In this document: one piece after another, positions 3,805-28,827 of the stretch | Layout of the letters: each line of letters opens with the position of its first letter | How positions within the stretch are numbered: position 1 is the stretch's first letter | Origin: Microcaldota archaeon | GTDB lineage: Archaea > Micrarchaeota > Micrarchaeia > Micrarchaeales > Micrarchaeaceae | DNA: 64,000 nt | NCBI GenBank assembly: GCA_021799635.1 | Contig: JAJZAB010000001.1 | Span: 1-64,000, forward strand | Direction of reading: 5' to 3' | Position numbers and translations under genes: made by a program | Notes under the pieces: generated by a model | The model's database searches: none | Told to the model about the DNA's origin: nothing | Seen by the model: only the letters and a program-made list of their open reading frames with translations

Positions 3805-5340
3805 TCACTGGAATATTGCGCTATACCTACTGTCATTGTGCGGGTTGAGCCCAAAATACCTCATTATTGTTGGCTGCACATTGTAAACATAAAGCTTCTT
3901 TCTGCTTATCTTCCCGTAGTCAATACTCCTATTGTAGCTCATCACGCCGAATATGCCGTTGCGCTGGTGATCGCCGCTTTTGGCCATCTCCGGATCTATA
4001 GTAAGCCCGCCGCTCTTAAGATAACCAAATGCATCCAGTATGTATCCATCACGTATCTCAGCGAATATGTCAGGGGCTATGAAAAGCTTTGTGCCCTCAT
4101 AGTATTCATCGGCGTCCCAAACGTTTATTATTAGTTTTTTCCCGTCTTTATCCTTTATCTTCGCGAGGTCTTCCATTAGCCTCTTTTTGATACGTGGTCT
4201 CTCCATTTTGGTAACTATACCACTTTCAAACCTGTTGTCGTTTATGAAAATAGTGGTTACCGGGCAGTTGGCTATGCTAGCGAAAGCCACGGTTTTTTTC
4301 ATGTCATAATCAAAATCATGTATCCTAGTGTAGTCTTCGGGGGATGTGCCAGACAGCATCTTCGATATGGTAGACTTGGCGATCCCCTTTAGCGATGGAG
4401 GCAGCTTGTCATAAAGCAGCTTCCTTGATCCGCTCTTGCTTACAGAGCTTAGGAGCTTCTCCCTTACCACGTACCTCATCACTCCCTTATTTGTATTTAT
4501 GCCCTCTTCTATCGCCTTTGTAAAAGCCGCATATTTTTTGTGGACAAGCCAGCCGTTCATAAGAAACTTTTTCTCTATGGGCTGCGCCCCGTGGTCTGAA
4601 ACCACCATAACCGTTGACCTCTCACGGCGCGCCCTCTCTTCAACCCAGAGCATAAAATCAGATATTGACTCGTACAGCGGCAGTATATAATCGCGCCATC
4701 TTTGATTGTTTAGCGAGAAGTGCTGCAGCCTGTCCTGCTCGGTAAAGCAGATAAAAGACAGGTCATACTCATTATTATTGATCAGCTCCTTTGACATGCG
4801 GCTCCTAGTATCGATCGATTCTTTGTAGATGGACGAGGCCTTTTGCAGCGATACCTCGCCGCTTTTCATTTTTGTCTCTATTTCAGGCTCACCATTGTAG
4901 TGATACTTGTCCGCAATGGCCTTTATCCTCTTGGAACTGCACTTGGATTGCAGCGGGAATCCGGTAATCATGTCTACGTTTGGCTCTGTTGACGGTTCAA
5001 CGAGCATTGCCGGCGTAATGACAAGGCTCTTCAGGCCATTCTGCGAGAGTGAATCCCAGAACGGCGCCTTTATTTTTGGATCGTAGTATACCACGCTCTT
5101 CGTGTAGTTGGGTTCCATCTTCAGGAATTCTGGCACCCCGTGCTCCCCTGGCCTGAATCCGGTGTATATGCTTGGCCATGAGGGCCCTGTCATAGGCGGC
5201 ATTGTTGATTCCATGTTGGTTAAGGCACCATTTTTAATAAATTCCTCGAACCCACCCATCCTGCCGCGTTTGCAAAAATTCTGTATAATCCACAATGGCG
5301 CCGAGTCTATCCCTATCAAATAAAGCTTTTCTGCTTTTAT
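3805..5340 (-). CDS. Alkaline-phosphatase-superfamily phosphodiesterase, possible AUA start
   Basis: The protein resembles type I phosphodiesterase/nucleotide pyrophosphatases. The first metal-site strand is LIGIDSAPLW, the nucleophile region is TMPPMTGPSWPSIYTGF (Thr expected as nucleophile), and further metal ligands appear as VVSDHGAQP and SGDHQRNGIFG. No signal peptide or membrane helix is seen, so it is probably cytosolic. The first usual start is TTG at 5319, but that cuts into the first beta strand. Seven codons upstream an ATA at 5340 lies exactly five nucleotides after GGTG (5349-5346) and restores IKAEKLYLIGID. The coordinates follow that choice; TTG 5319 is the conservative alternative. 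It likely works with the glycosyltransferase downstream. Confidence 0.85.
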   Translation of the reverse strand: MKAEKLYLIGIDSAPLWIIQNFCKRGRMGGFEEFIKNGALTNMESTMPPMTGPSWPSIYTGFRPGEHGVPEFLKMEPNYTKSVVYYDPKIKAPFWDSLSQNGLKSLVITPAMLVEPSTEPNVDMITGFPLQSKCSSKRIKAIADKYHYNGEPEIETKMKSGEVSLQKASSIYKESIDTRSRMSKELINNNEYDLSFICFTEQDRLQHFSLNNQRWRDYILPLYESISDFMLWVEERARRERSTVMVVSDHGAQPIEKKFLMNGWLVHKKYAAFTKAIEEGINTNKGVMRYVVREKLLSSVSKSGSRKLLYDKLPPSLKGIAKSTISKMLSGTSPEDYTRIHDFDYDMKKTVAFASIANCPVTTIFINDNRFESGIVTKMERPRIKKRLMEDLAKIKDKDGKKLIINVWDADEYYEGTKLFIAPDIFAEIRDGYILDAFGYLKSGGLTIDPEMAKSGDHQRNGIFGVMSYNRSIDYGKISRKKLYVYNVQPTIMRYFGLNPHNDSRYSAIFQ

Positions 5341-26316: not shown

Positions 26317-26356
26317 TTTGGCAAACGGCGCGGTTTGGCGCCGGCAAGGTGTAACT

Positions 26357-26713
26357 TTGAAGGGGCAAACGCAACGTAGGAACGACTTCATGCCGATGGA
26401 GGCAAAGCGCATAATACTCAAGATACGCATACTTGGAAGGCTGAAGCTAGGCGGGCCGATCTATTCATACGCTCTGATCAAGGAATTCAACAAGGAAGGT
26501 TTTGCCAAATTCTATGGCATAACACTGAAGAACGACCTATACAATGCCCTCAGGGTACTTGAGAAATCTGGCTACATAAAAGTGGCATCAAAGGTGGAGC
26601 GCGGGAAGGTGAAGAACTACTACACCATAACAAAAAGGGGGTCGGTGGCATTGGGCTCAGTTGGAAAAATGATTATAAAGTCGATCGGCAAGGCGGCCAA
26701 GCTGTTTAGGTGA
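26357..26713 (+). CDS. PadR-family transcriptional regulator
   Basis: The winged-helix protein has about 118 residues. The PadR-like core is RIILKIRILGRLKLGGPIYSYALIKEFN, recognition region YGITLKNDLYNALRVLEKSGYIKV, wing RGKVKNYYTITKRGSVAL. The TTG at 26357 has GGTG exactly five bases upstream and is taken as start; ATG 26390 would give a shorter N-terminus with the domain intact. It probably represses its own operon through the palindrome upstream. The downstream ABC ATPase frame begins in the bases around its stop codon, so the genes are coupled. Confidence 0.83.
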   Translation: MKGQTQRRNDFMPMEAKRIILKIRILGRLKLGGPIYSYALIKEFNKEGFAKFYGITLKNDLYNALRVLEKSGYIKVASKVERGKVKNYYTITKRGSVALGSVGKMIIKSIGKAAKLFR

Positions 26714-26717
26714 TGAT

Positions 26718-27704
26718 ATCTCAGATATAATCAAAATAGACAACGTTGTAAAAAAATTCGGCGACTTTACCGCTGTCAACGATATAACACTTAGCGTCAA
26801 GGAGGGGGAGATATTCGGGCTCCTTGGGCCGAACGGCGCAGGGAAGACCACAACCATAAATATGCTTCTCACCCTGCTAAACCCCACTTCAGGCAGGATA
26901 ACCGTGGACGGGCTGGATGTGACCAAGAACCATGAAAAGGTCAAGAAGCTGATGGGGCTAATGACCCAGGAGACGGTAGTTGAAGCGGACCTGACAGCGA
27001 GGCAGAACCTGGAGCTGTTCGCCCACCTTTACCACATCACGGCCGAGCAGAGAGAGAAAAGGATAAAGGAGGCGCTGGGTGAGGCGGAGCTTGAGAAGTT
27101 TGCTGATGTTAAGGCCGGTACCTTCTCCGGGGGAATGCAGAGAAGGCTAGGGCTCGTGAGGGCAATGATCCAGGAGCCGAGGATACTAGTTCTTGATGAG
27201 CCGACAACCGGATTGGACGTGCAGAACAGAACGACGATGTGGGGCAGGATAAAGCAGATGAACAAAAGCGGCACTACCATACTATTGACAACCCAGTACT
27301 TAGAGGAGGCTGACGAACTCTGCGATAGGATAGCGATAATAGACCACGGCAAGGTCATCGCGCTAGGCACCCCTTCAGAAGTGAAAAGGATTGCCGGTAC
27401 GGGCAGGGTACTTGAGGTGATTGTGAAACCGGAGGACACCGCCAGGGTCCTATCGTTGCTAAAGTCAAGGTTTGGGCTGAGCGGCGCGGCGAAGGGCGAC
27501 AGGATAATAGCTGCGCTTGAGAAAGGCAGTGAATCCGAATTTACAAAGATATCGGCCATGCTTGACAGGGAGAAGGTTACCGTGCTTTCGATAGGCGCCC
27601 ACCTTCCCACCTTAGACGATGTTTTCATCAAGCTGACGGGGTCGGGGATGAGGGACGCTTCTGGCGAGATGCAGGGCGGAAGGGCAAACATGAGGTGGAG
27701 ATGA
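26718..27704 (+). CDS. ABC-2 ATPase, apparent AUC start codon
   Basis: The ABC protein has ISDIIKIDNVVKKFGDFTAV, Walker A LLGPNGAGKTTTI, signature FSGGMQRRLGL, Walker B ILVLDEPTTGLD, and switch His replaced by Gln in LLTTQYLEEADEL, a common DrrA/NodI-type feature. No ATG, GTG or TTG is in frame between a stop at 26676-26678 and the ATG after Walker A, so a normal start would delete the nucleotide-binding loop. ATC 26718 lies five nucleotides after GGTG (26709-26712), exactly the local rule, and gives a normal N-terminus. It partners with the permease that starts two bases after its stop. Confidence 0.92.
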   Translation: MSDIIKIDNVVKKFGDFTAVNDITLSVKEGEIFGLLGPNGAGKTTTINMLLTLLNPTSGRITVDGLDVTKNHEKVKKLMGLMTQETVVEADLTARQNLELFAHLYHITAEQREKRIKEALGEAELEKFADVKAGTFSGGMQRRLGLVRAMIQEPRILVLDEPTTGLDVQNRTTMWGRIKQMNKSGTTILLTTQYLEEADELCDRIAIIDHGKVIALGTPSEVKRIAGTGRVLEVIVKPEDTARVLSLLKSRFGLSGAAKGDRIIAALEKGSESEFTKISAMLDREKVTVLSIGAHLPTLDDVFIKLTGSGMRDASGEMQGGRANMRWR

Positions 27705-27705
27705 A

Positions 27706-28827
27706 ATGAGCCTGCTCTCGGATTCTATATCATTATACAAAAGGGAAATGCTTATATTTAGGGCTAACATAAGGTCAAACGTAGTCAGGACTGCGATCTT
27801 CCCGTTCGTCATACTTATCTTCTTCAGTTTCCTCGGGGCGGCGGTGACAAACGTGCCGGTGGCGGTTGTGAACTACGCAAACAACCCACAGTCTGCACAG
27901 CTCGTTGATTCGTTCAGTTCGCAGAATCTTATGCAGGTCTATTCGGTTACAGATGAAAGCCAGGCGCTGGCTATGCTTGGGGCAGGAAACATCGATTTTG
28001 TGATTGTTATATTACCAACATTTCCGTCATTAGGGCCGGTTCCAGCCGTGCAGGTATACTACAACAACGTGCAGTTCAGCACTACGGAGGTCGTGCTGCC
28101 TGCAATCCAGCAGGACGTAGCAGAGCTTTCTTCAAAAAACAACTTCCAGAGCCAGCAGTACCTCCCGCCGTCCAATCCTGCAGCATCGCTTGACACGCCG
28201 GTGACTGGGGCGAACGGCGACTACGAAGACTTCCTGTTTTCAGGAGTCATAGGTATGATAATAGTCTTCGGCGCGATTTTCAGCTCCGGCCTCTCTTTGA
28301 TTACCGACAAGCTCGGGGGCAACATTAAGACATTCCTCATAACTCCAATAAACAAGTCTGCAATACTGCTTGGCAGGGTGTTCTCAAGCGCTGTCCAGTC
28401 CATCTTCTCCATAGCGATTGTGATAGTCATAGGCCTGCTCCTTGGCAACACTATAGCAATGGGCGCAGAGGGGATATTCTGGATACTGGTGCTCGGCATC
28501 CTCCTTTCTGTATGCATGTCTGCTATATCACTCATAGTGGCGTCAAGGCTAAAGAACCTCCAGGCCTTTCAGATATTCGGGCAGACCATAGCGCTGCCGC
28601 TGTGGTTCATCTCAGGCGGCATATTCCCGGTCTCCAGCTTCCCGCCCGTGCTTCAGGCCGTGAGCATTTTCGACCCTATGACCTACGCGCTCAACGGCTT
28701 TAGGTTTGTGGTTTTGGAGGGGGTATACCCGCTTGCCAGCATAGTTACAGATGTAAGCGTACTTGCGATATTCGCGATTGTTACCACTGCAATAAGCATA
28801 CGCATGTTCAAAAGCACTATCGATTGA
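27706..28827 (+). CDS. ABC-2 type permease (DrrB/YhgE-like)
   Basis: The 373-residue protein has one N-terminal helix (NVVRTAIFPFVILIFFSFLGAAV), a roughly 150-residue extracytoplasmic domain with Gln/Asn-rich stretches, and five or six C-terminal helices including PLWFISGGIFPVSSFPPVL, the conserved ABC-2 motif. This layout resembles YadH/LinK-type exporters with a large outer loop. Together with the ATPase it likely exports a lipid, drug or surface component; the PadR control suggests inducible export. ATG lies one base after the ATPase stop. Confidence 0.9.
   Translation: MSLLSDSISLYKREMLIFRANIRSNVVRTAIFPFVILIFFSFLGAAVTNVPVAVVNYANNPQSAQLVDSFSSQNLMQVYSVTDESQALAMLGAGNIDFVIVILPTFPSLGPVPAVQVYYNNVQFSTTEVVLPAIQQDVAELSSKNNFQSQQYLPPSNPAASLDTPVTGANGDYEDFLFSGVIGMIIVFGAIFSSGLSLITDKLGGNIKTFLITPINKSAILLGRVFSSAVQSIFSIAIVIVIGLLLGNTIAMGAEGIFWILVLGILLSVCMSAISLIVASRLKNLQAFQIFGQTIALPLWFISGGIFPVSSFPPVLQAVSIFDPMTYALNGFRFVVLEGVYPLASIVTDVSVLAIFAIVTTAISIRMFKSTID

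Follow-up and report, generated by a model that had tools for sequence, protein, structure and literature searches.

Putative initiation at AUC in an ABC transporter ATPase gene of Micrarchaeota, and evidence for AUA and related start codons in the lineage

The start of the ABC ATPase gene

Where does translation of the ABC ATPase gene at 26718-27704 (+) begin? The gene lies in a window of 64,000 nucleotides (G000:C4:1-64000), the whole stretch of DNA that was analysed, which is part of the 749-kb genome G000. The reading frame follows an in-frame TAA at 26676-26678 (+), confirmed by sequence check, and is open from 26679 to the TGA stop at 27702-27704, with no ATG, GTG or TTG codon before the ATG at 26862-26864 (+). 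That ATG is residue 49 as counted from an ATC codon at 26718, and the Walker A motif GPNGAGKT is at residues 37-44 (26826-26849, +), and so is kept only with a start upstream of it. As the next ATG lies after Walker A, no alternative start among the canonical codons keeps the motif. The preliminary description of this DNA had reported the upstream stop, the late first canonical start and the loss of the nucleotide-binding loop that its use would entail, and had proposed the ATC at 26718, five nucleotides past the GGTG at 26709-26712, as the natural start; these observations on the frame and the coordinates are all confirmed.

Read from the ATC the product is a protein of 328 amino acids, which in a profile search matches TIGR01188 (drrA) at 327.6 bits, above the cut-off of 312.45, and in which the Pfam ABC_tran domain (PF00005) is complete (profile 1-137/137, beginning at residue 20). 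On the TIGR01188 score and the complete nucleotide-binding domain it is, as judged from sequence, an ABC ATPase of the DrrA-type exporter family, to which we assign no substrate, and it is full when read from the ATC, for which the preliminary description had claimed a family-typical N-terminus. The gene is followed at 27706-28827 (+) by that for its partner, an ABC-2 type permease in the list of open reading frames (PF12698, 130 bits), and is preceded by a padR regulator gene, also a listed open reading frame, at 26318-26713 (+) (PF03551, 39.3 bits, cut-off 27). The Shine-Dalgarno (SD) sequence, AGGTGAT at 26708-26714 (+), matches the genome's own 16S tail, AUCACCU, by perfect complementarity over 7 nt, and the padR stop codon (TGA, 26711-26713) lies inside it. 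The proposed start codon at 26718-26720 (+) differs from AUG in the third base only, and there is no canonical codon that can serve.

We propose that translation of the ATPase starts at this AUC, a near-cognate codon anchored by the SD sequence and read by the ordinary CAU initiator tRNA, and put the probability of this at roughly nine in ten. The case, made from sequence, is based on the lack of any other usable start, the homologous position in relatives, the length and spacing of the SD sequence, selection on the N-terminal codons and the recurrence of such starts.

The start codon in related genomes

The start locus was read in 29 relatives plus the named MAG MAS5.bin21. Comparison of the orthologous locus, the check proposed in the preliminary description, gave a gapless alignment in which six relatives (G001, G002, G003, G006, G008 and MAS5) have their ATG start in the 26718 column. 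The ATG in these six also favours another explanation, that the true codon at 26718 is ATG, its third base being wrong in the assembly, and the preliminary description had itself held that ATG in related genomes would count against an AUC start. This was found, but it is countered by an independent change at the same place and by the recurrence of such starts genome-wide. G026, which is of a different genus and 79% identical, has ATA in the 26718 column at the same spacing (GGGGTGAATAG-ATA-GCC), where an in-frame TAG immediately precedes the ATA and the first canonical codon to follow is 25 codons on. A tree of 19 orthologues places G026 with G049 and MAS5, which both have ATG, and away from G000; G000 and G026 form one group in 0% of bootstrap trees. 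As G026 groups with genomes that have ATG, two separate changes are needed, to ATC in G000 and to ATA in G026. The non-canonical codon of the ATPase gene is not conserved, and among the relatives read only G026 likewise has no canonical start, by its own independent change. Furthermore, 624 genes of the assembly have good homologues and not one of these is frameshifted, and non-canonical starts at SD spacing recur in three genomes with changes only in the third and perhaps the first base, a restriction that errors would not give. Given the independent ATA in G026 and the genome-wide pattern, we consider a base error improbable, and a genuine substitution by far the more likely.

A start at one of the later near-cognate codons, ATA 26727, ATC 26730 or ATA 26736, is more improbable still: these are in frame and also upstream of Walker A, but they are at least 14 nt from GGTG, a spacing without enrichment, and the relatives begin at the 26718 column.

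Initiation at the ATG at 26862 would give a protein without Walker A, from a truncated or decaying gene, and has in its favour that this is the first canonical start in frame. Against it, the dN/dS value for codons 2-48 is 0.05-0.11 in comparison with five relatives (dS being saturated for two more), and these codons are constrained like codons 49-120, while in frame upstream of the ATC the dN/dS comparison with relatives gave no such constraint. The N-terminal codons 2-48 are, on these substitution ratios, under strong purifying selection, equal to that on the rest. The family model is also filled from residue 12 onward and the N-terminus is retained in all relatives read, so that we give this explanation next to no weight. 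A frameshift that would fuse the ATPase frame with padR, or with the out-of-frame ATG at 26713, is suggested by the overlap of that ATG with the padR stop as TGATG (26711-26715). It can be dismissed to much the same degree: the alignment is gapless to relatives in which the genes are separate and the 26718 column has ATG, the 26713 frame reads only MISQI before its stop, and its ATG is not conserved among relatives.

With regard to initiation at the AUC, the padR stop TGA is within the SD sequence in G000, G003 and G026.

A genome-wide test for ATA, ATC and ATT starts

A hexamer coding model was used for gene calling, and G000, read in stretches, gave 754 genes. The ATPase gene ranks first of the 754 for coding sequence before the canonical start (50 nats, 51 codons), the second having 31.7.

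The spacing test covered G000, part of G007 and one contig of G015, and took in sites that follow the upstream stop, precede any canonical start and are at most 10 codons from the coding onset. ATA, ATC or ATT make up 21/61 codons at five nucleotides from GGTG (GGTG+5) as against 43/549 at the remaining spacings in the range 1-15 (p=6e-8), about 5 of the 21 being expected by chance, and in these three genomes the enrichment is confined to GGTG+5. For ATA alone the figures are 15/61 and 14/549 (p=5e-9). ATC alone, at 3/61 and 8/549 (p=0.09), and ATT alone, at 3/61, are not significant at this spacing, and neither are the second-position variants of ATG (AAG, ACG and AGG, together 2/61), while CTG has 4/61 (p=0.02). 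In the same three-genome test AGTG, GGAG and other SD-like motifs gave no enrichment signal. GGTG+5 is also the spacing of canonical starts, as had been stated in the preliminary description: near coding onsets the codons at this position are ATG in 50 cases, TTG in 22, ATA in 9 and GTG in 5. In G000, G007 and G015 alike, UUG outnumbers GUG at GGTG+5 and comes second among the start codons there.

An SD sequence of 6 nt or more is present in 13/21 of the ATA, ATC and ATT starts as against 54/193 of the ATG starts (p=0.002), and that of the ATPase gene, at 7 nt, is longer than is usual in the genome. Termination coupling as a general requirement was considered and rejected, with 8/21 close to an upstream stop as against 95/276. 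A first tally, not limited to sites before the start, had no ATA signal; ATA is common inside genes, which accounts for this, and it was the restriction to sites before the start together with the comparison of spacings that revealed the signal. In a small sample of short loci pooled across other relatives the figures were 2/6 as against 4/73 (p=0.06).

The same test on 400 kb of E. coli, at E. coli SD spacings, was negative (1/57 as against 30/356), the control being bacterial and the pattern having been measured in Micrarchaeota genomes only. In this control infC tops the measure of coding before the canonical start, at 23.

We consider the pooled sequence evidence for AUA starts to be strong. 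For AUC as a class there are few cases, and the ATPase gene is the clearest; the other members are a glycosyltransferase gene of G007, a gene of G034 (L160) and, as a weaker case, one at G000:C3:14683. The proposal in the preliminary description of AUC as a natural start thus stands for the ATPase gene, as the clearest case for AUC, but was too narrow, as AUA appears to be the main non-canonical start in the lineage as a whole. The three codons would best be treated as one non-canonical set across the lineage, with AUA the main member and AUC and AUU rarer.

Other genes with putative non-canonical starts

An ATA start in a gene for a MerA-like flavoenzyme is conserved across nine genomes in seven genera: G015, G040, G049, G041, G046, G043, G037, G047 and G038 (loci L282, L284-L286 and L288-L292 respectively). 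With 300 residues of the protein as query, the best NCBIfam match is TIGR02053, at a score under its cut-off. An in-frame TAA or TGA lies right before the ATA in 9/9 genomes, GGTG is at 5 nt in 7/9, and in 5/9 the first canonical codon to follow, at +29 or +30, is past the FAD-binding GxGxxA motif. Six orthologues (L283, L293, L294, L295, L297 and L298) have ATG at the start codon. In 9/9 the start overlaps the TAG stop of the upstream gene as ATAG, the counterpart of the common ATGA overlap.

A GT4 glycosyltransferase gene has GGTGGTAGN-ATA in G015, -ATA in G033 and -ATC in G007, which are of three genera; there is a TTG or GTG three or four codons further on, but without an SD sequence. The sufS gene of G000 has an ATA start, with an in-frame stop six codons upstream and TIGR01979 covering residues 5-410; with a start at the following canonical codon (+12) the conserved DVxxIxKDFPI stretch would be cut. 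The second case in the window is a phosphodiesterase-family gene at 3805-5340 (-), with an ATA start at 5340 at GGTG+5 and ATG in the same column in G002, G026 and G031.

The largest coding loss in G007 is that of a gene with an RHGE (RHGES) motif at G007:C3:58465 (-), with GGCGAGTCG-ATA and about 100 codons without a canonical start. The ATA, 5 nt after GGCG, suits the N-terminus of the family.

A scan of orthologues in the three genomes gave few cases, adding a CTG start in an S26e-like gene and an ATA with ATG in the G007 orthologue. The S26e-like ribosomal protein gene has its possible CUG start at GGTG+5 (G000:C4:73032 (-), L036:9032), and the G007 orthologue, which is 88% identical, has TTG at the CTG position.

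In the case of gyrA of G000 there is an ATA soon after the upstream stop, and a GTG seven codons on is also a possible start. Four gyrA frames, in G003:C10, G013:C9, G043:C22 and G058:C11, are of 1329-1343 codons, as against about 805 codons elsewhere; in these long frames the match splits at about residue 100-115, and they probably carry inteins at one site.

Relation to known systems

Third-position near-cognate starts are already known at single bacterial genes. In E. coli infC and pcnB start at AUU, and the weak start codon of infC serves autoregulation by IF3 (also cited in PMC13009471). The ATPase gene resembles these two in having a third-position near-cognate start, and infC tops the same measure in 400 kb of its own genome as the ATPase gene does in G000; however, infC is bacterial and has the IF3 loop, whereas the ATPase gene has no sign of a factor-specific loop.

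In S. aureus AUA or AUU starts have been demonstrated for infC, ccpN, citZ and cvfC1, all with extended SD sequences, by initiation profiling and reporters, with about 10% of the yield of AUG (Nat Commun 2026, PMC13009471). In two cases the near-cognate starts are conserved between relatives, and the AUA of citZ is confined to one lineage of S. aureus (PMC13009471). Conservation of the codon is thus usual in such starts but no precondition; in Micrarchaeota it is seen at the MerA-like gene and not at the ATPase gene. The S. aureus set and the ATPase gene are alike in having a third-position near-cognate start and an extended SD sequence. However, the former is bacterial and of few genes, with no AUC case mentioned (PMC13009471), whereas in Micrarchaeota the starts recur across genera and are proposed from sequence.

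For archaea, a review of initiation names AUG, GUG and UUG only (PMC7531240). A census of start codon switches in prokaryotes, which likewise counts changes among close relatives, has 61,358 ancestral AUG starts with one change to AUU and none listed to AUA or AUC (PMC5622118), but its counts depend on annotation, and annotation may conceal starts of this kind. We found no report of AUA, AUC or AUU starts in archaea or Micrarchaeota in the open-licence literature, and recurrent use in archaea is new as far as we could find. AUA and AUU starts have been proven for a few bacterial genes. Recurrent and partly conserved use of AUA, with AUC and AUU, in one phylum of the DPANN would give the first archaeal set known to us.

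In annotation, gene finders usually allow ATG, GTG and TTG only, so that such genes are dropped or truncated, and standard annotation would then misplace or miss gene starts in the Micrarchaeota lineage; for the ATPase gene the cut would take away a catalytic motif. The test of SD spacing at the coding onset can be applied to any genome.

Initiation machinery and proposed mechanism

The 16S rRNA gene of G000 is at C4:427952-429437, with the 3' end ...GGATAGATCACCTC. At L067:5420-5436 the 16S 3' end reads GCGGATAGATCACCTC, the usual form being GGCTGGATCACCTCC. An initiator-type tRNA at C4:278623 has the anticodon CAU, and aIF1 is present; an altered initiator anticodon and a missing aIF1 were both considered as causes and rejected on these grounds. 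With both components present, the simplest view is SD-anchored initiation that, like that in bacteria, tolerates a third-position mismatch. The SD sequence, spacing, CAU initiator tRNA and aIF1 are those of canonical archaeal SD-led initiation.

We suggest that AGGUGAU pairs with the 16S tail, setting the AUC in the P site at the AUG spacing of the genome, where the CAU initiator tRNA would take it with two standard pairs and a mismatch in the third position. The protein would then begin Met-Ser-Asp-Ile-Ile-Lys, with Met presumably inserted at AUC. With the padR stop within the SD sequence, terminating ribosomes may aid initiation. The efficiency of near-cognate initiation is probably reduced. 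In Micrarchaeota generally, third-position near-cognate initiation, mostly at AUA and also at AUC and AUU, would be used by a small share of SD-led genes; ATA may dominate because G to A is a transition.

It is possible, and we put it forward tentatively as somewhat short of an even chance, that Micrarchaeota have a relaxed start set, with AUA regular and AUC and AUU rarer, that its use extends to about 1% of genes with conservation between genera, as in the AUAG overlap of stop and start, and that the machinery has evolved weaker third-position discrimination. If so, one would look for a changed modification of the initiator tRNA, or for changes in aIF1/aIF1A or the 30S P site, and genes with such starts give natural mRNAs on which third-position discrimination by the archaeal initiation complex could be tested.

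With regard to AUA as a sense codon, in most archaea it is read by a modified CAU tRNA. Only one CAU tRNA was found in G000, and there is a tRNA-Ile with a genomic UAU anticodon at G000:C4:268564-268640 (-) (L046:4564-4640).
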